From Candidatus Gottesmanbacteria bacterium GW2011_GWC1_43_10 (lineage in GTDB: Bacteria > Patescibacteriota > Microgenomatia > UBA10105): 32,665 nt of DNA. Of this stretch, positions 1-25,492 are shown one piece after another. Each line of letters starts with the position of its first letter. The stretch's first letter is position 1. The position numbers and the translations under genes were made by a program. The stretch covers positions 1 through 32,665 of the forward strand of contig LCEX01000007.1 of the NCBI GenBank assembly GCA_000995415.1. The letters are read 5' to 3'. The notes under the pieces are model-generated. The model worked only from the letters and a program-made list of their open reading frames with translations, made no database searches and was not told the origin of the DNA.

Positions 1-74
1 AGGAGAACCTATCATCCGGCAATGTTTAAGGCATCTGTCTATTTGGCTTTAATCATTATTCTGGTAAGATATTC

Positions 75-1271
75 CTAGTTTTGAAATGAGTTCATGGGCG
101 TCACAATGTCTAAATCCCCGTCGGCGGTTACTTCATCTGATTGCGTCGGATTCAGGCTAAAGGCTTTGGCTTCTGCCATCTTCGTCGATCCGGCAAGCTT
201 ACGTATTTCATAGTGAGGTTTTACTTCTGAAGGATAAACCCATTTTTTGTTTGAGTACACACGCTCCACGACAACTTCCATTTGTTTTACCGGAGTAGGC
301 GGGTAGAGATCGCGCGCATTCATTTTCAGTGCGGCTGCGATTATCTCCAACTCATTAATGGAGGGAAAAAGCCGTCCGCTTAAAAATTTGTGGATTTTAT
401 TTATACTCAGACCCGTCATTCTGGATAGAACCTCGTCGGTCATAAAACTATCTTGTGTTTTAACTCTAAGTAAATCGCTGAAAGAAGTTTTTTTTGCCGT
501 CAGATCGAGCAATGCGTTGTTGACTTCGTCCGGACGCAATACTGACAATTCTTGTTGAACTGCCGAACCAAGCTTGCCGGAAAAGGTAACAGCCATAATA
601 TAAGCTTCTTTACTTGTGTCGCGAGTCGTAAAAGAATGGGGTACATATGGTGTACCGTAATTTGAATCGCCGGTGTCCATAAACAAGGTGTGTGACCCAC
701 TGTCATCTTTCCAATGTAAATTTACCGGGCCCACATACATGGTAAGCTGATGCATGAAGTGTCCAGTGTTATAAGCAATATCTGGATCGTTTCCGTCTTC
801 TGTCGTTACTTCTCTTAATTCTTTAATCCATTCGGGTCTAAAGGGACCCAAATCGCTCATAGCGGCATCCCTGTATTCGTAGTACGGGGTTGGCATTCCA
901 TTTTTGTCTTTCCGGTCAAAAATTCTGCTGGTGGTTGCCGATTCCTGAGCATGTTTTACGATAACGCCGCCGTCCGTATCATCCCGTACAACTTCCAACG
1001 CAAGTCGAGAGACAGGGTATGTTGCCACCATTTTTTCAATAAGTTGATTTGTTTCGTCCTGAGAAGCTTCGCCCGCCAAAATACTTTTGACCGTTGGTAA
1101 CGGTAACTTAAGCTCCGAAGCTAAAAAATCGGGATGTCTTTTTATATCTCCGGCAACTCTCAACAGCAAACCACCCTGTCTTATTTTATAAGAAGGGTCC
1201 TCTGACTGTCTTGTACCGGGAACTCGTTGTTCTATCATATTTTTACACTGCTGTTTTAGCACGCACCTCAA
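75..1271 (-). CDS. mpnS: HTH-cupin Fe(II) oxygenase of the HEPD/methylphosphonate synthase family; probable methylphosphonate synthase
   Basis: Two HTH-like segments (LASELKLPLPTVKSILAGE; LSRMTGLSINKIHKFLSGRLFPSINELEIIAAAL) and a cupin core NTGHFMHQLTMYVG...GDSNYGTPYVPHSFTTR. It is the last gene of a PEP mutase/Ppd/ADH operon. The listed start is TTG at 1271; an ATG at 1238 (MIEQRV) is an alternative. Confidence 0.8.
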   Translation of the reverse strand: MRCVLKQQCKNMIEQRVPGTRQSEDPSYKIRQGGLLLRVAGDIKRHPDFLASELKLPLPTVKSILAGEASQDETNQLIEKMVATYPVSRLALEVVRDDTDGGVIVKHAQESATTSRIFDRKDKNGMPTPYYEYRDAAMSDLGPFRPEWIKELREVTTEDGNDPDIAYNTGHFMHQLTMYVGPVNLHWKDDSGSHTLFMDTGDSNYGTPYVPHSFTTRDTSKEAYIMAVTFSGKLGSAVQQELSVLRPDEVNNALLDLTAKKTSFSDLLRVKTQDSFMTDEVLSRMTGLSINKIHKFLSGRLFPSINELEIIAAALKMNARDLYPPTPVKQMEVVVERVYSNKKWVYPSEVKPHYEIRKLAGSTKMAEAKAFSLNPTQSDEVTADGDLDIVTPMNSFQN

Positions 1272-2419
1272 TAAATTGCAACCAAGAACCTTTTAAGGCG
1301 CTGTTTATCATATTGTAGCGGAATGTTATTTACCCGATTTGTATAGAAGCTATCTTCAATAATCACATTAATATTTTCTTTTGTAATACCTAAAGCAGAT
1401 AGCTTGATTTTTAATCCAATGCGTATCATGAGTTGTTCTACGACATTTGCTCCCAGTGCCGGGGTGTGTGCGTTCAATGCTGAAAGAAGATGTTTTTGCC
1501 TATTTTTAGGCAACGCTGGAATTATGCCCCGCATAAAGCTTGGAAGCGTTACTGACGTAGCTTGTCCGTGTGTAACACCCCAGCGCGCGGTTAATGGATA
1601 AGAAACAGCATGACAGATTGTTGTTTGAGTATTGGAAAATGCGAGCCCCTGCATGAACGATCCCCATGCCATACGATCCCTGATTTTTTTTGTAGGATTA
1701 CGTACTGCATTTTCTAAGTTTGTACGTATTACGCTAATTGCCTCCAAAGCATATATATCAGATTGTCTATTGTGGTGTTTGTTCCAATAAGCTTCAATCG
1801 CCTGACACAATGCGTCCATACCGCTGGTTGCAGTATCTTTCTGGTTTAACGAATCGGTCAAATGAGAATCGACAATCGCAATGGCGGGGAACATGAAGCC
1901 CTTAGAATATAGAGAGTACTTTCTTTTATTATCTCCCCAAACGGTCGCCCATGGAGTAACTTCAGTTCCTGTTCCGGCAGTAGTGGGTATAGCAATATAT
2001 AGGAGCCCCTTCGCAGTTATTTTTTTTGATTTGGATACTAAATACTCCTCGATGAGTCCTTTGTGTGTGGTTAAAATAGCTGCACATTTCGCGGTATCCA
2101 ATACAGAACCCCCTCCGATTGCGATGATTGCTTCGTATCGATACTTTCTGCAATATGTAACGATCCTGTTAATGGTACTAAAATCGCTCCTTTTGATTTT
2201 TTCGTTGTAAACATCGATCGGTGTTTCTTTCAAATTCGAAATGACTTGACGGTAATCATCAGATTTTTTAAAATGTTCTCCGCAGACAAGAAGGGCAGAA
2301 TGAATACTTTTTTCAACTATTATATTCCCCAACAGTTGCAAGCTATTCCGACCAAAATATGCTTTTGTGGGCATTGAATACCGTTTAGTCTTTTTAGGCT
2401 CGAAAGTTTTAGCTTTCAT
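1268..2419 (-). CDS. Iron-containing alcohol dehydrogenase, probable phosphonoacetaldehyde reductase (PhpC-like)
   Basis: Fe-ADH motifs GGGSVLDTAK, TTAGTGTEVTPWATVW, MDALCQAIEAYW, CHAVSYPLTARWGVTHGQA; located between Ppd and the cupin oxygenase. Confidence 0.85.
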   Translation of the reverse strand: MKAKTFEPKKTKRYSMPTKAYFGRNSLQLLGNIIVEKSIHSALLVCGEHFKKSDDYRQVISNLKETPIDVYNEKIKRSDFSTINRIVTYCRKYRYEAIIAIGGGSVLDTAKCAAILTTHKGLIEEYLVSKSKKITAKGLLYIAIPTTAGTGTEVTPWATVWGDNKRKYSLYSKGFMFPAIAIVDSHLTDSLNQKDTATSGMDALCQAIEAYWNKHHNRQSDIYALEAISVIRTNLENAVRNPTKKIRDRMAWGSFMQGLAFSNTQTTICHAVSYPLTARWGVTHGQATSVTLPSFMRGIIPALPKNRQKHLLSALNAHTPALGANVVEQLMIRIGLKIKLSALGITKENINVIIEDSFYTNRVNNIPLQYDKQRLKRFLVAIY

Positions 2420-2438: not shown

Positions 2439-3530
2439 TTAAAAATTCTCCATAAAACGGCTTTTTATTTGAGGACACGTATAGGCATCAGAAACCCTCT
2501 TAGCCACTTTATCATCAAATCTTACCTTAATATGAACAAAAACAGCACCATCATAGTTAGACAAGATCGATAAAAATAACGACAATTCTTTCAAAGTTGT
2601 AGCTTGATAAAAATTGTGGAATCTAAAAGCTTTCGCTAAATATGAGAAGTCGATATTCCTTGAGATGCTTGGTTGCCCGCCGGTGCTTTCATAGCTTTCA
2701 TTATCGAAAACAGTATACAAAATATTTTTATGAACTGCCGGATTAAATGAGGCTAATCCTCCAAGATGCATTAATAATGATCCATCTCCGTCAAAAACCA
2801 CAACGCGTTTATTTGTATTCGGGGCTAACCCTAATGCGATGGAAAAAATGTGTCCCATTGATCCGACCGTATAAAAATCCGGTGTATCTTTGATGGAAAA
2901 TGAATCACGGGTCGCGTATCCCGTGGTGGAAAGAAAAATCGCGCTTTTGAACAACTTTTCCTTGATCATCTTCATCGCTTCATATCTACTCATCTCATAC
3001 TTTGCATCAGTCAATTCGGAACCTACGAACGGTGTAAATGTATTTTTCCTAACAATAAGCGCAACCGGATTTTTTGTAATCCTCGCCTTTTGGGAAAGCT
3101 GTCTAATCTGTTGCACATACTCGGCGTCAGATATGATTTTATACGGAATGTTAAAAGTTTTGAGTATTTTTTCCATATTTTCCCCGACGATATCGTGTTC
3201 AGGAGCATCATGCCCTTTACCCCCCTCACCTCTCCAGGAAATAATGTAAAAGATCGGAATATTATAAACCTGATTCAGAGAAGTAAGCGCGTTAAGCGTA
3301 TTCATAAACCCAGAATTTTGTATTGCAACAATTGGAATAGTTCCTGAGGATAAATATTTGCCGGACGCAATACCTACAGCTAACGCTTCATTCGTAGGAT
3401 TAATTATTTCACACGCTTTACTGTTCCGGACATAATTCAAAAAATCTTTGAAATACGAACACGGTATCTCAACCAAGGGGCCGAGTTTATTGTGCATGAG
3501 AGCTTGTGTGAAATCCTTTGGATGAATCAT
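2439..3530 (-). CDS. Phosphonopyruvate decarboxylase (TPP-dependent)
   Basis: TPP-binding motif FDGDGSLLMHLGGLASFNP...NILYTVFDNESYESTGGQPS, typical of Ppd; its ATG overlaps the end of the PEP mutase gene by 4 nt. Confidence 0.88.
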   Translation of the reverse strand: MIHPKDFTQALMHNKLGPLVEIPCSYFKDFLNYVRNSKACEIINPTNEALAVGIASGKYLSSGTIPIVAIQNSGFMNTLNALTSLNQVYNIPIFYIISWRGEGGKGHDAPEHDIVGENMEKILKTFNIPYKIISDAEYVQQIRQLSQKARITKNPVALIVRKNTFTPFVGSELTDAKYEMSRYEAMKMIKEKLFKSAIFLSTTGYATRDSFSIKDTPDFYTVGSMGHIFSIALGLAPNTNKRVVVFDGDGSLLMHLGGLASFNPAVHKNILYTVFDNESYESTGGQPSISRNIDFSYLAKAFRFHNFYQATTLKELSLFLSILSNYDGAVFVHIKVRFDDKVAKRVSDAYTCPQIKSRFMENF

Positions 3531-4480
3531 GTCTGTTTAGATTTGTCGTGTTGTTCATTTTCTTTTTGTGTAATTGCCAGTAATCCCGTCACTTCAAAGA
3601 GACTAGCAACTGGACCGCATACCACGTTTACTTCAAAAGATCGGTCATTAAGCAGAATGATTTCGCACGTTTTTTCCATCGCCGTATATGCAGATCGCAA
3701 CATATGATTTGCATATATAATGACCTGGAAACCGGCCTTAGCAAGTTCATCTGCGGTAATCGTGTTGTATGTTGTCGGTGCACAAACGAGCACTTTATTC
3801 TTTATCAACTTTTTAGGAAGCTGATAATATTTTTTGGCAAACTCTAATATTTCTGACGGGGTAGAGGATTTAGAATGTATCATTATTCCGTCCGCTCCGG
3901 CTGACAAAAATATCTTTGCTCTTCTGAGAGCATCAGCAACCGTTTCACCTGCTATCAAGCTTTCAAGCCGGGCCACAATCATAAAAGCCCTTTTTTGCTT
4001 CACTTGTACGCCTCTTCGTATTTTTTCAGCAAAGATATTCTGATCCTCAAGGCTTTGTTTTGTATCAACCAAACTATTCCGTTTAGGAAAAACTTTATCT
4101 TCTATAATGACCATGGAGACGCCTGCCCTTATAAGCCGCTTCACCAAATATTCAAAATGATTTACATCGCCACCGGTATCACCGTCAACGATCATTGGTT
4201 TGCCCGTTACTTCTAAAATTTGATTAATCGTATCTAGTCGAGAATCATGACTGACTACTTCAATATCCGGCAAACCCTTCGAAGCAGAATCTGTAAGACT
4301 ACTTTCCCAAAGCCCATCAAATGAAAGCGTGCGGCCTTTTTCTACTAATTGGAAGTTGTCTACAATCAAAGCACTTAATCCATTATGTACTTCCAAAACT
4401 TTAACGAATCCCCTTTTACGAATTAATTCTTTTAAGAGGGATACTCTTTTTTCGTTGTGAACAAACGTCTTAGAAAACAT
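3527..4480 (-). CDS. pepM: Phosphoenolpyruvate mutase (PepM)
   Basis: IVDGDTGGDVNHFEYLVKRL and the diagnostic EDKVFPKRNSL (EDK-X5-NS). Start moved from the TTG at 4513 to the ATG at 4480 (MFSKTFVHNEK), which fits the upstream promoter. Confidence 0.92.
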   Translation of the reverse strand: MFSKTFVHNEKRVSLLKELIRKRGFVKVLEVHNGLSALIVDNFQLVEKGRTLSFDGLWESSLTDSASKGLPDIEVVSHDSRLDTINQILEVTGKPMIVDGDTGGDVNHFEYLVKRLIRAGVSMVIIEDKVFPKRNSLVDTKQSLEDQNIFAEKIRRGVQVKQKRAFMIVARLESLIAGETVADALRRAKIFLSAGADGIMIHSKSSTPSEILEFAKKYYQLPKKLIKNKVLVCAPTTYNTITADELAKAGFQVIIYANHMLRSAYTAMEKTCEIILLNDRSFEVNVVCGPVASLFEVTGLLAITQKENEQHDKSKQT

Positions 4481-4514
4481 GATCCTAACCTCAAGTATTT
4501 GATCCAAACACAAT

Positions 4515-8461: not shown

Positions 8462-9928
8462 ATGCATATTGACCACCGTTTATATATTGATTCCGATCTG
8501 GAAAAAGGCATTGACAAAAGGCTTGAACAGGTTCTTCCGAAACTGATCGTCGTCGGCACCGGTATCACCAGTTCTCATCTGGGTGACGAACGCAATTTAC
8601 GCGAGTTTTTATTTGCGGCGGAGGTGACGCGTTTTTTGCGTGCCAAAAACTACAATGTGTTTTTTATGTTGGCCGACGACTCTTATGATGCTTTGGATTT
8701 CCGCCAATTGAGGGTCGCCGTTAATAAAAACGAAGAGCTGATAGCCAAATTTGAAAAATACTGCGGCATGCCGCTCAAATTTATCCCGGATCCATTTGCC
8801 TGCCACGATAGTTATTCGGCTCATTTCCAAAACGAAATCCTTAAACGTTTTAATGACTTTGGCATCTTCCCCAATATTATCGACTCCTACTCAGCATACG
8901 CTTCGGGGTTATATGACGCGGCTAAAGAAATAGTTTTCTCAAGACATGAAGAAATAAAAGCGTTTCTGAAACAAAAATTCCCCTCGTACACGATGAAAAA
9001 ACTCTTTTATCCGGTTTGCCCTGATTGTAAACGGATGGCCGGAGTAGAAAAGACGGAAATATCCGGAGCCAAAATCCATATCCATTGCACCACCTGTCAA
9101 AAATCATCAACCCATTTATGGAAACAAATACCGGGTAAATTTAGCTGGAAAATAGACGAAGCTATCAAATGGAATGTCTATAAAACTGATTTTGAACCTT
9201 TTTCCAAGGCCTATTTGGACCCCGATGTCGGTAGTTTCTATATAGCCAAAGCGCTATCGGAAACCTTCTTTGGCGGCAACGTTCCAGAGGTGATTGAATA
9301 TGGTCAAGTAATCATGGACAAGAGTTTTTCATATACATTATTAAATACTCTACCGCTCCCTGCCTTTCGCTCACTCTATCTGGAACGCAGAAAAGCTGAT
9401 ATTCAGATTTCACTGCAGAAAATCATCCATGTAGCCAAACAACATCTGGTTGAGAAGGAATTATCCTTTTATGACTACGTCCACGAAAGACTTCCTTATG
9501 ACCTTTTGGAACATTTAAATGGACAACTCCATGATCCTTTTTGGCAAAAGCTATTGCATCTCGGTTTAGAGTTTAACCGGCGCCTCCTCAAGCGGGAAAT
9601 GTATCCCCAACTGCCGGCACTGGAAGCGCTAAAATTACAAAACGCAGAGACTTTAGGGCAAATCAGGTCGTTAATACTCTGGACTCTTACCTGGCGCCGG
9701 CAACCTAATCATGTATATACAGATTTTTCAAACCACTACCAACAATATTTAAAAGATCATAAAATCCAGAAATCCGCGCTTTTCCCAATACTTAGAAAAC
9801 TGCTTTCCCAGGAACAGGGTGTCCCGGTTCGGCGGCTTCTTTACTTTGCTCCGCTCCATTATCTCTATGCCTGCCTTGCACTAATTGATGAAACCAAGGA
9901 AGTAATTGCACCACTTAGTGTAAAATAA
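8462..9928 (+). CDS. Class I lysyl-tRNA synthetase homolog, divergent
   Basis: CGMPLKFIPDPFACHDSYSAHF...GLYDAAKEI, PVCPDC...CTTC zinc site, WKIDEAIKWNVYKTDFEPFSK and FFGGNVPEVIEYGQVIM align with the class I LysRS pattern; HIGH and KMSKS segments are degenerate. Confidence 0.75.
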   Translation: MHIDHRLYIDSDLEKGIDKRLEQVLPKLIVVGTGITSSHLGDERNLREFLFAAEVTRFLRAKNYNVFFMLADDSYDALDFRQLRVAVNKNEELIAKFEKYCGMPLKFIPDPFACHDSYSAHFQNEILKRFNDFGIFPNIIDSYSAYASGLYDAAKEIVFSRHEEIKAFLKQKFPSYTMKKLFYPVCPDCKRMAGVEKTEISGAKIHIHCTTCQKSSTHLWKQIPGKFSWKIDEAIKWNVYKTDFEPFSKAYLDPDVGSFYIAKALSETFFGGNVPEVIEYGQVIMDKSFSYTLLNTLPLPAFRSLYLERRKADIQISLQKIIHVAKQHLVEKELSFYDYVHERLPYDLLEHLNGQLHDPFWQKLLHLGLEFNRRLLKREMYPQLPALEALKLQNAETLGQIRSLILWTLTWRRQPNHVYTDFSNHYQQYLKDHKIQKSALFPILRKLLSQEQGVPVRRLLYFAPLHYLYACLALIDETKEVIAPLSVK

Positions 9929-14056: not shown

Positions 14057-16294
14057 TTAGTTGCTAATGCTAAATTTAGGATAAAAACCGCTATTCCTTA
14101 GTTTTTTTTGAAAAAGAAACGGAAACACGTCTATATTAAGAGTGTGTATAGTATAACCGCCAACTGCCATCCCCTTCCTTGCCAAACGAAAATTTTCCTG
14201 AGCCAATCGGGAATCTCCTTGTAAATAATATATCAGACCTAAAGCCAAATAATTCCAAAACATATCTCCGATCCGATATCCCAAATGTTTACGAAGTAAT
14301 AAGCTTTTATTGAGATAGTTTATAGCACGACTAAACTGACGTTCATGGAGGAAAATACAACCGATTCTGGATAAAATAGTCTCTTTCTGAGGCAAGTCAT
14401 CAATCGTGTTTACGATGCGGAGCGCCCGCCGTAAATAAGATTTGGCCAGTTTTCTTTTACCCAACATCCAATAGGTCTCACCGATATAAGTAAAAATGTC
14501 GCCCTGTTTTTCTTGATTACCTTGTTTAGTAAAATACGTGAGAGCCTGTTGGAAAAATCGCAGTGCCTTTTTGGAGTGGCGCTGGCTTTGGTAAATTTTT
14601 CCCAACCGAATCCAGGCCAGCGCAATTAAATACGCATCTTTTAATCCTTTTGCCAGTTCCAAACCAACTTGTGCATACTTCTGGGCTTTATTTATATCAC
14701 CTTGCCAATAATGCAACCAACAGAGTTCCCTTAGTAAACAAGTGGCTTCGGCGGAAGCATTATTAACCTTTTGAGAAGCGCGAACCACTAATCGACTGTA
14801 TCTTTCTACTGCCGACCACCGACCGGTATCCCACAAAAATACGCCTAAATATTCCCAGATGTTGATCATTTGCTGCCATAACTTAAGCTCAAAACAAATT
14901 TTCACTATTCCAGTAATATTTTTCAGTTCTTCCTCAACTTTAGGATAAAAATGTCGATTTGCCCTTCCTCCATCTGCCAAAAACTTATGATAATACAAAG
15001 CAAGTAAGTGGTAAGTAGAAGTATTTAGTTTTTTCTGCACAAAGATTTTAACCAATGAATGCAGTCTGTATCTTTTATTCACCGATCGTTCTACCAATGA
15101 CATTTTGTGAAGGACCTGAAGAGTTTGATTTGTTTCTTCCAAACTTAGTTTGTTGATAAAAGCCACTGCTTCAGAGCTAAAATCTACACCTCCAAAGGCA
15201 CCCAGGGAAATAAATACTTGCTTTAGTCTTGTATCCGAACTGTTGAAAGCCAAATCCAAAGATAGCTCCAGATTTTTATTATCATATTGAAACTCTTTCA
15301 AACTCACTTTTTGCTTTCTGATGCGCTCTAGAAATTCATATAATTTCTGAGGGTGGAGGGCTATGCGTCCAAAGAAAATTGTCAGGGCTAGCGGTGAATA
15401 ATAAAGTTGTTTACAAATGATTTGAATCTGCATCTTATTGCTTAAAACATAAGGTTTTCCCAACAATTGATATGCTAGTTGCAACGCTTCTGGTTGTGTA
15501 AAACTGGTTAACTCCAATTTTTGGAATTGGCGGATTTCGGAAGGCAAACTTTTTGAGGTAATTAATAAAGAATATTTTGGATCTTTGGCTGGCAAAAGGA
15601 AACGCAAAGAATCAAAATTGTCAACACTGTCTAAGATAAGAAGTGTGTCACGTTGATCAAGAATAGACCTGACGGTTTTGGCTTTGACTGCTGTATCCCG
15701 AATACTCGATACGTCTTCGCCGTATGTTTGGGCAATATGCGTCAGGATATCATCTATTTTTAGAATATCGAAGCGGTACCACAATATCCCGTCTTTAAAC
15801 CTATTTCTTAAAATATGTCCAATGCGGATAGCTAAAGTGGTTTTCCCGACACCGGCCATGCCATGTATCACTACCGGAGTTTTTTTGAATATTGCCCAAA
15901 CAGCATCTTTTAATGACTTTTCTCTGCCGACAAAATGAGCAGGTTCTTGAGGTACTGTAAACGGCACACTAGACAGTAATTTAGGCGAGAGTTGCAGGGA
16001 TTCGTCTTCTGAAAGATCACGTTGGCTGGCAGCAGCTAGAAATTGGTTTGCTTCAAGTAATGTGGTTACTCCACTTTTTTGAACAAATACTTTCAGTATT
16101 GCAAAAAGTACGTCTCGGTTATGGGGAATCCTCTTTCCCTTTTGCCAGTGGGAAAAAATACTATCTTCATAGACCTTGCCTTCCTCGGCTAAAGCAGATC
16201 CGAAGTCAGAAAGTGTCGCCAATTCGCTCTTTAAACGGTATTTGCGAAACAGATCTGCAAACCGCGGCATTTGGGATGGTATCACGAACTTCAC
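14057..16294 (-). CDS. HTH-NB-ARC/STAND ATPase with C-terminal TPR repeats
   Basis: XRE-like N-terminus (SHWQKGKRIPHNRDVLFAILKVF), Walker A GMAGVGKTTLAIRIG, Walker B LLILDSVDN, then several TPR-type repeats (ALAWIRLGKIYQSQ..., KQGDIFTYIGETYWMLGKRKLAKSYLRRAL). Confidence 0.88.
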   Translation of the reverse strand: MKFVIPSQMPRFADLFRKYRLKSELATLSDFGSALAEEGKVYEDSIFSHWQKGKRIPHNRDVLFAILKVFVQKSGVTTLLEANQFLAAASQRDLSEDESLQLSPKLLSSVPFTVPQEPAHFVGREKSLKDAVWAIFKKTPVVIHGMAGVGKTTLAIRIGHILRNRFKDGILWYRFDILKIDDILTHIAQTYGEDVSSIRDTAVKAKTVRSILDQRDTLLILDSVDNFDSLRFLLPAKDPKYSLLITSKSLPSEIRQFQKLELTSFTQPEALQLAYQLLGKPYVLSNKMQIQIICKQLYYSPLALTIFFGRIALHPQKLYEFLERIRKQKVSLKEFQYDNKNLELSLDLAFNSSDTRLKQVFISLGAFGGVDFSSEAVAFINKLSLEETNQTLQVLHKMSLVERSVNKRYRLHSLVKIFVQKKLNTSTYHLLALYYHKFLADGGRANRHFYPKVEEELKNITGIVKICFELKLWQQMINIWEYLGVFLWDTGRWSAVERYSRLVVRASQKVNNASAEATCLLRELCWLHYWQGDINKAQKYAQVGLELAKGLKDAYLIALAWIRLGKIYQSQRHSKKALRFFQQALTYFTKQGNQEKQGDIFTYIGETYWMLGKRKLAKSYLRRALRIVNTIDDLPQKETILSRIGCIFLHERQFSRAINYLNKSLLLRKHLGYRIGDMFWNYLALGLIYYLQGDSRLAQENFRLARKGMAVGGYTIHTLNIDVFPFLFQKKLRNSGFYPKFSISN

Positions 16295-20873: not shown

Positions 20874-21977
20874 TTAGACATTTTGTTTATTATACCATTT
20901 ATCAACCATTTCGATCACGCGTTTTTGATAGTCAGTTGAAGTGATATCAAACCACTCGATTCCCGCCTCTTTCTTAAACCACGTCAACTGCCTTTTGGCA
21001 TATTGCTTCTCATCCAACTTCCACCGCTCAATGATTTCTGATATCAATTTTGAGTTCTGGGATTTGGGTTCTGAGTTCTCAAAGAATGGTTCCCATTCTC
21101 TATACCCCAGCCCACTCATTGCAGGCTTTTCCCATGAATAGCCTTTTTTTAACAGCTTTTCAATTTCCCCAAGCACACCTTGTTTCATCCGCTCGTCAAC
21201 ACGTGCGTCAATCCGATGGAATAACTCATCAGGTGGTGCAGTAAGACCGATTAGTAAATTATCTGTTCGTAACGCCCCCTGACCCCCTCTTAACCTAAGA
21301 GGGGGAAATCCCTCTCTTAAAATAAGAGAGGGTAAGGGTGAGTTATGAACATTTTGTTTTTTCCACTCTTCAACTTCAATCGCCCTCACAAGTCGTCGCG
21401 GATTGAATCTATCTGAATGGTTCATGCTTTCAAATTTCTCGGAGGTATTTTTCTTCAACTCTGTTTGAAGTTCTTCAACAGTTAATTTATCTAGCTTTTG
21501 TCGAAGACTCGCATTTGGTGGAATAAAAATTCCATCCCAAGGCCTAAGTAGTGCACGAACATATAACCCAGTTCCACCAACAATGATAGGTAATTTTCCC
21601 CTCTGCCAAATATCTTGAATAACCGCCTCCGCGAGTTGCTTAAATTCACCCACATTAAACACATAGTCCGGCTCAACTATATCAACTAACCATATCGGAA
21701 CTTCGTCTTTATTCCTAAACCCAACAGTAAATTTTTTATTAACCCCACCCCTCCTCCCCTTTATTAAAGGGGAGGTGAAGGAGGGGTTTAATTTTTCATT
21801 TTGATTTTTGATTTTTGATTTTTGATCAATGTCCTTTCCCGTCCCAATGTCCATACCACGATACACTTGTCTGCTATCTGCAGAAATAAGTTCTCCACCG
21901 AATTTTTTTGCAAGGTGTAACGCCAGCGCAGTTTTACCGGTAGCAGTGGGACCACAGATAATTAATAATTGTTTCAT
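20874..21977 (-). CDS. miaA: tRNA dimethylallyltransferase MiaA with two repeat-derived insertions
   Basis: ICGPTATGKTALALHLAKKF, ISADSRQVYRGMDIGTGK, VDIVEPDYVFNVGEF, IIVGGTGLYVRALL, KRQLTWFKKE. Start placed at ATG 21977. Confidence 0.95.
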   Translation of the reverse strand: MKQLLIICGPTATGKTALALHLAKKFGGELISADSRQVYRGMDIGTGKDIDQKSKIKNQNEKLNPSFTSPLIKGRRGGVNKKFTVGFRNKDEVPIWLVDIVEPDYVFNVGEFKQLAEAVIQDIWQRGKLPIIVGGTGLYVRALLRPWDGIFIPPNASLRQKLDKLTVEELQTELKKNTSEKFESMNHSDRFNPRRLVRAIEVEEWKKQNVHNSPLPSLILREGFPPLRLRGGQGALRTDNLLIGLTAPPDELFHRIDARVDERMKQGVLGEIEKLLKKGYSWEKPAMSGLGYREWEPFFENSEPKSQNSKLISEIIERWKLDEKQYAKRQLTWFKKEAGIEWFDITSTDYQKRVIEMVDKWYNKQNV

Positions 21978-22055: not shown

Positions 22056-23414
22056 TTACAAGACACTCTGGGCTCTAGATGCATATCGATCAATGGTATA
22101 AGTTCCTCTCTTAAGGTTTTTTTGATTTATGAGCTCATCCAAGATTTTCCACCGGCGCTTTTTCTCGGTATGAGGAACATTATCTTGATAAGCTTTGTGG
22201 GCAGCAGTCATCGGCCGGTCTGAATACATCGCCACATAGGCTTTGCTAAATCCGACTTTTTTAACCAAATCTACCGTATTTTCAAACTGTTCTCTTGTCT
22301 CTCCGCAAAAACCAACGATAATATCTGTGGAAAATGTCATTTTCGGTATCTGTTGACGAATTTTTTTGATCAATTCTATATATTCTTCACGAGAGTACCA
22401 GCGATTCATTCGTTTAAGCACTTCATTATCTCCAGATTGCAGTGCAAAATGCAGATGACGAACAATTTTAGTATTCTTTTTGATCGTTTCAATCAGTTCA
22501 TCGGTAAAATCCCATGGGTTTGAGGAAATAAAGTCTACTTTTTCTACTCCACGGATTGCACAGACTTCATCAAGAAGAAACGGAAATAATGTTGGGATAC
22601 GCAACTTTCCTAAATGCTTCACAAATACTGGCGTAACCTTAATCCCGTTTGGCAACCCGTAACCGTCATACGGAACAACTTTATTTTTTGGTAACTCCCC
22701 CTCCTCTCCCCCTCGTAACCCCACCCCTGCCTCGCCGACAGACAGGCTTCCTCCCCTTAAATTAAGGGGAGGTGAGGAGGGGTTATTTTGGAAATAAGTC
22801 CCAACATCAAGATCTCGTAATACTTGAATATTATCTTTTCCCACCACCAAATCCGCTCCGTATGAGTTGACATTTTGACCAACTAAAGTAACTTCTGTAA
22901 ATCCCTGACTAGCCAAGTGCTCGATTTCATGAATGATTTCATGGAAAGGCCGACTAATCTCTCGACCCCTGGTAAAAGGCACTACACAAAAAGTACAAAA
23001 GTTATTGCAACCATTGGAAATCGGCACCCACGCATGTACTCGATTGGTACGGATGGGAGCATTATCAAATCCGACCTCTTCAATCGGCAAAAACTCATCG
23101 ACTTGGGGCATTGCCTCCCGAATCTTTTTGAAAAATCGGCCAGTCTTATCACGCGCCGCCATCCCAATCATACAACCAGTCACCACAACTTTGAGGTTTG
23201 GTTCACTCAATTTACGTTTGGATAAATTATTAACCAATCCGTAGACTCGATTTTCAGCCGACTCCCGAATCATGCAGGTGTTAATCACAATATGATCTGC
23301 TTCGTCAATACTCGCAGAAGGAACCATCCCACGCGCTTCCAACATCCCGGCTACTCTTTCCGAATCCGCTTTATTCGCCTGACATCCGAAGGTTTGGATA
23401 AAGTATTTTGTCAT
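22056..23414 (-). CDS. miaB: Radical-SAM methylthiotransferase MiaB, apparently lacking a TRAM domain
   Basis: FIQTFGCQANKADSERVAG, radical SAM NGCNNFCTFCVVPFTRGRE, FSTDIIVGFCGET; contains a repeat-derived insertion. Confidence 0.92.
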   Translation of the reverse strand: MTKYFIQTFGCQANKADSERVAGMLEARGMVPSASIDEADHIVINTCMIRESAENRVYGLVNNLSKRKLSEPNLKVVVTGCMIGMAARDKTGRFFKKIREAMPQVDEFLPIEEVGFDNAPIRTNRVHAWVPISNGCNNFCTFCVVPFTRGREISRPFHEIIHEIEHLASQGFTEVTLVGQNVNSYGADLVVGKDNIQVLRDLDVGTYFQNNPSSPPLNLRGGSLSVGEAGVGLRGGEEGELPKNKVVPYDGYGLPNGIKVTPVFVKHLGKLRIPTLFPFLLDEVCAIRGVEKVDFISSNPWDFTDELIETIKKNTKIVRHLHFALQSGDNEVLKRMNRWYSREEYIELIKKIRQQIPKMTFSTDIIVGFCGETREQFENTVDLVKKVGFSKAYVAMYSDRPMTAAHKAYQDNVPHTEKKRRWKILDELINQKNLKRGTYTIDRYASRAQSVL

Positions 23415-25440: not shown

Positions 25441-25492
25441 TAACTCCCCCATTCCCCCTCTTAAATTAAGAGGGGGTCAGGGGGCGTTATAA
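25441..25492. repeat. Intergenic copy of the CCCCTC..TTAA..GAGGGG palindromic repeat
   Basis: taactcccccattccccctcttaaattaagagggggtcagggggcgttataa; the core CCCCCTCTTAAATTAAGAGGGGG is an inverted repeat. Confidence 0.85.

Follow-up and report, generated by a model that had tools for sequence, protein, structure and literature searches.

Genes and features of the locus

The window (the whole stretch of DNA analysed, 32,665 nucleotides) is contig C7 of the Candidatus Gottesmanbacteria bacterium GW2011_GWC1_43_10 assembly. At its left edge, an insertion-sequence end abuts the surviving part of a gene of the hydroxyethylphosphonate dioxygenase (HEPD) and methylphosphonate synthase (MPnS) family, hereafter the cupin gene, which is preceded by three phosphonate biosynthesis genes on the same strand (Table 1).

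Table 1 Features at the left end of the window, with strand and supporting evidence.
Feature	Position	Strand	Evidence or remark
IS4/IS5-family element, right end	1..93	+	Identical 93 nt at start of contig C20
Transposase C-terminal end, last 25 codons	1-78	+	Encodes RRTYHPAMFKASVYLALIIILVRYS followed by stop
Terminal repeat TTTTGAAATGAGTTC of insertion element	79-93		
HEPD/MPnS-family gene, surviving part	94..1271	-	ORF residues 1-392; phmmer 6b9s E=1.3e-77, 6b9r E=3.1e-48
H212, predicted iron ligand (MPnS H190)	636..638	-	49-row alignment
G206, product-diagnostic position 184	654..656	-	Ile in MPnS, Gly in S. albus HEPD, Glu176 in S. viridochromogenes HEPD
L185, product-diagnostic position 162	717..719	-	Phe in MPnS, Tyr in class II HEPD
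Q175, predicted iron ligand (MPnS Q152)	747..749	-	Gln in S. albus HEPD too
H171, predicted iron ligand (MPnS H148)	759..761	-	Invariant in 49-row alignment
N168	768-770	-	Translation of ORF 75..1271
Iron-containing alcohol dehydrogenase, probable phosphonoacetaldehyde reductase	1268..2419	-	PF00465
Phosphonopyruvate decarboxylase	2439..3530	-	TIGR03297 303.1 bits, just under cut-off 312.5
PEP mutase (PepM)	3527..4513	-	TIGR02320 340.7 bits, above cut-off 319.55

The PEP mutase carries the EDK-x5-NS motif (EDKVFPKRNS), and its gene, the decarboxylase gene and the iron-dependent dehydrogenase gene are adjacent, the arrangement by which a 2-HEP operon was recognised here; the best NCBIfam match of the dehydrogenase is TIGR03405 (Phn_Fe-ADH) at 220 bits, well under the cut-off of 423.7. 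The three steps are those of the known 2-HEP route (PMC8931226) and, because they precede the cupin gene, the operon plausibly makes 2-HEP. Homologues of pepM, the decarboxylase or the dehydrogenase are also found near most homologues of the cupin gene. Within the phylum, the cupin gene was present in one of 389 genomes and in neither of the two genomes of the same family, and PepM scored above its cut-off in 6 of the 389. Single-protein scans of genome and viral contigs returned no close relative of the cupin protein, and none was found on plasmids or phages.

Contamination was rejected as an explanation for the contig, as its MiaB is 75–84% identical to those of two same-family genomes. The small size of the genomes and the lack of ribosomal protein uL30 are consistent with Patescibacteria (CPR). 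Elsewhere, the window encodes a class I lysyl-tRNA-synthetase-like protein of 488 aa that matches only the N-terminal catalytic part of its family (8462-9928) and a 745-aa NB-ARC/TPR STAND-type NTPase, a type known from signalling or defence (14057-16294). GC-rich palindromic repeats of 34–38 nt occur at 21270-21307, 21752-21785, 22749-22782 and 25453-25486, the first two within the miaA ORF and the third within the miaB ORF, with the frames unbroken; their core pattern has about 14 matches in the genome vs none for a reversed control, and they resemble palindromic elements inserted in genes.

Iron site and state of the surviving protein

Translation of the ORF at 75..1271 (reverse strand) gives N168-T-G-H171-F-M-H174-Q175, G206 and H212, the residues on which an initial annotation of this DNA had based its assignment to MPnS; the range it gave for the site (636-761) covers H171, Q175, G206 and H212, with N168 lying just beyond. 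The spacings of 4 from His to Gln and of 37 from Gln to the distal His were likewise measured in the ORF, and the N. maritimus MPnS ligands it had given (H148, Q152 and H190) are correct. This numbering follows a TTG start, although an ATG at residue 12 appears likelier going by the length of MPnS. The phmmer match to MPnS spans ORF residues 26–384, a full domain, so the iron-site motif within it is not a chance pattern, and sequence comparison shows the ORF to be genuinely homologous to N. maritimus MPnS and S. albus HEPD. The His-x3-Gln and distal His of the Gln-type enzymes fall in cupin 1 on H171, Q175 and H212 in a 49-sequence alignment, by which the 2-His-1-Gln iron site proposed initially is well supported, with the binding of iron itself predicted from the family.

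The surviving sequence comprises a helical domain, the metal-binding cupin 1, a second helical domain and the start of cupin 2. The residues at all 23 family-invariant columns of the 49-row alignment that fall in the surviving, cupin-1-containing part are retained, including K44, R116, Y131 and N168, and the 392 codons contain neither stops nor frameshifts. Three of 40 near-invariant columns depart from the family (N25G, T113A and Y163H, MPnS numbering), a small number but the joint highest, tied with locus L057, whose gene is uncut. An AF2 model of the ORF (mean pLDDT 88) was compared with known structures, the check that had been suggested for the MPnS assignment; its best Foldseek match is MPnS (6b9s, TMq 0.81, 38% identity), and S. 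albus HEPD comes next (TMq 0.78, 30% identity).

An insertion sequence cuts the gene

The initial annotation overlooked a transposon in this gene. The ORF is broken near codon 393, immediately ahead of the metal-free second cupin, by an IS4/IS5-family element. The window starts 74 bases beyond the ORF stop, and because C7 and C20 part exactly at the element end (base 93/94), the final six or so codons, together with the stop (75-93), belong to the insertion sequence. A full-length relative of the element at C21:8354-9231 encodes a DDE_Tnp_1/DUF4096 transposase (PF01609, PF13340) and has inverted ends TTTTGAAATG(A/G)GTTC; the transposase end in the window is identical to the C21 transposase at 16 of 23 aligned residues. 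The gene's own sequence ends at residue 392, where the second cupin starts with its opening strands in homologues, and beyond MPnS position 340 the window retains 35 residues vs 108–125 in every 3'-complete homologue, the ORF ending some 80 residues early without the C-terminal cupin. A frameshift or mistaken stop was rejected as the cause of the short C-terminus, as no frame of window positions 1-240 continues the second cupin.

A cupin profile search of the whole bin found no second cupin elsewhere. Contigs C50 and C56 carry left ends of this element, the missing cupin is not encoded in the flanks there, and no 3-bp target duplication pairing the four known contig ends was found. The missing part may lie in unbinned DNA or may have been deleted. 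The evidence for insertion comes from one contig end whose other flank was not recovered, and the population may include intact copies. Since the invariant columns are kept and 392 codons are free of stops and frameshifts, the element may have arrived recently, leaving a catalytic cupin that could still be active; the loss of cupin 2 nevertheless probably impairs function in this genome.

Iron ligands, the 162/184 pair and the product

The initial annotation had taken Glu six residues before the distal His as the HEPD state, and its absence, with the Gln, as marking MPnS. For the S. viridochromogenes enzyme the description is right (PDB entry 4yar is titled E176H), and class I HEPD has Glu there in 3g7d vs Gly206 in the window, where a Glu would have spoken against the assignment. 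In S. albus HEPD (6b9r), however, the corresponding segments read HLLYQ and G-L-P-F-A-P-H, with the same Gln-to-His spacing of 37 and an identical H-x3-Q...G...H layout, and the pattern therefore fails to tell MPnS from HEPD: Gln present and Glu absent rules out only the S. viridochromogenes type. Because MPnS and class II HEPD both have the ligand triad, the product is not readable from it. Nor does Gly206 support MPnS, as had been argued, since MPnS has Ile184 at this position; Gly is the HEPD state and would point, if anywhere, to HEPD.

Class II HEPD is diagnosed by the pair Tyr158-Gly179 in AlpG, which makes hydroxymethylphosphonate in vitro (PMC8976061). We assigned this pair to MPnS positions 162/184 by its 21-residue spacing rather than by aligning the AlpG sequence; the spacing agrees with 162/184 (Y163-G184 in 6b9r) and disagrees with Tyr152-Gly184, which are 32 apart. 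An alignment-based scan yielded 63 homologous loci in genome collections and one viral contig, and the pairs counted at 162/184 were Phe-Ile (47), Tyr-Gly (13), Tyr-Ile (2, SAR202), His-Thr (2), His-His (1) and Leu-Gly (1). The sole Leu-Gly protein is that of the window (Leu185-Gly206), which thus has neither the Phe-Ile of MPnS nor, despite its Gly, the Tyr of class II HEPD. Gln-type proteins with H-x-x-H-Q have Ile at 184 nearly throughout, the exceptions being the window (Gly), L021 (Gly), L004 and L065 (Thr) and L011 (His), while every H-L-L-Y-Q protein has Gly. L004, L011 and L065 belong to Actinomycetota (Frankia, Amycolatopsis and Pseudonocardiaceae), and their His162 with Thr or His184 represents a further pair state. 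The L021 protein (L021:2910-4298), from a Marine Group I thaumarchaeote (F20), has Tyr-Gly within the MPnS clade, vs Phe-Ile in its neighbours, and is possibly an archaeal HEPD derived from MPnS.

Phylogenetic placement

In a 62-row tree, the window protein forms a long branch (1.53) adjoining a 19-row third clade with 99–100% bootstrap support, and the clades of N. maritimus MPnS with Pelagibacter and of S. albus HEPD lie on the opposite side of the tree. The third clade includes Rhodospirillaceae, Frankia, Pacearchaeota and Prochlorococcus; to our knowledge, none of its members has been characterised or assayed. Approximately unbiased (AU) tests gave p=0.021 when the window was forced with the MPnS group and p=0.010 with the HEPD group, moderate evidence against placement with either characterised enzyme that is weakened by long-branch effects, so that the separation from characterised MPnS is not firm. 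At 16 positions separating the characterised groups, the window agrees with MPnS at 7, with HEPD at 4 and with neither at 5. Two MPnS loci (L014 and L064) were observed in a 'Patescibacteria' MAG (CRAIB_MAG54), and the L014 contig is probably a binning contaminant because its protein is almost identical to the thaumarchaeal L012.

Proposed function and alternative explanations

We consider it highly probable that the cupin gene encodes a divergent Gln-type enzyme closing a four-gene 2-HEP operon, that its ligands are silent on the product, and that the insertion has cut the gene and probably impaired the protein. The operon would convert PEP to phosphonopyruvate, phosphonoacetaldehyde and 2-HEP, with the cupin gene last, a divergent member of the 2-His-1-Gln branch that holds both MPnS and class II HEPD. 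By analogy with the family, H171, Q175 and H212 would hold Fe(II), which would bind 2-HEP, the presumed substrate, together with O2; the C-C bond of 2-HEP would be cleaved, giving a one-carbon radical that would become either methylphosphonate or hydroxymethylphosphonate, the ligands not telling which and the second-shell pair being that of neither enzyme. Without its second cupin the encoded protein is likely to be impaired, and 2-HEP may be as far as the pathway goes. For the intact ancestor, methylphosphonate as main product has somewhat less than an even chance by our estimate and hydroxymethylphosphonate a lower one, the remainder falling to a mixture or loss.

The methylphosphonate originally assigned as product does not follow from a pair that fits neither enzyme or from a tree that groups the window with neither characterised group. 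That the enzyme, when intact, was a functional methylphosphonate synthase is a tentative reading: MPnS is the best match in sequence and structure, HFMHQ surrounds the Gln as in MPnS vs HLLYQ in S. albus HEPD, Phe-Ile predominates in the nearest clade and Leu185 lacks the Tyr hydroxyl, like Phe, but no other homologue without Tyr162 has the HEPD state Gly184, placement with characterised MPnS is disfavoured (AU p=0.02) and the second cupin is missing from the gene. It is rather unlikely, though conceivable, that Leu-Gly arose because constraint was relaxed as the gene decayed, and not through selection for a specificity. The transposon cut, the long terminal branch and the joint highest count of near-invariant departures are consistent with decay, but across 392 codons neither the catalytic residues nor the frame is disturbed, a fast-evolving lineage would also be expected to give a long branch, and the uncut L057 departs equally often. 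A convergent HEPD, in which the exchange of Ile184 for Gly brought a shift to hydroxymethylphosphonate as product, is unlikely: Gly184 is present in every member (12 of 12) of the S. albus HEPD clade, and L021 changed both positions to Tyr-Gly inside the MPnS clade, but the window lacks Tyr162 and Tyr151, both constant in the HEPD clade, the AU test speaks against grouping it with HEPD (p=0.01) and a Pfam search of the window found no downstream hydroxymethylphosphonate-processing gene. It seems more doubtful still that Leu-Gly, joining the Gln-adjacent residues of MPnS to the Gly of HEPD, is a third natural state of the product switch, whose intact allele in this patescibacterium would give a mixed or distinct partition between methylphosphonate and hydroxymethylphosphonate; if it were, the organism would be an unrecognised source of phosphonate as a methane precursor.

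Methylphosphonate feeds aerobic methane production, and MPnS genes are counted in surveys for this reason. As a marker for such genes, H-x3-Q with no Glu is unsafe, because S. albus HEPD also passes. The second-shell variants (Leu-Gly, Tyr-Gly, Tyr-Ile and His-Thr/His) provide natural material on how one iron site gives two products, and the locus is a rare example, from a small-genome lineage, of an operon for 2-HEP, the cupin occurring in 1 of the 389 phylum genomes searched.

Comparison with known systems

The enzyme that we favour, a divergent Gln-type protein, shares with N. maritimus MPnS (6b9s/6b9t) the 2-His-1-Gln site, HFMHQ, the Lys, Tyr-Tyr-x-Tyr and Asn, at 38–40% identity, and with most MPnS homologues the nearby pepM, decarboxylase and dehydrogenase genes, but differs in that MPnS combines Phe162-Ile184 with a full second cupin, whereas the window protein has Leu-Gly and no cupin 2. 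S. albus class II HEPD (6b9r) has the same H-x3-Q...Gly...His arrangement but Tyr163-Gly184 and HLLYQ where the window has Leu185-Gly206 and HFMHQ, and identity is lower at about 30–32%. S. viridochromogenes class I HEPD (PhpD, 3g7d) resembles the window protein in fold (TMq 0.60) and presumed substrate; unlike it, PhpD has Glu176 as third ligand and no Gln four residues after the His. The third clade is the group nearest to the window in the tree, but its members mostly have Phe-Ile.
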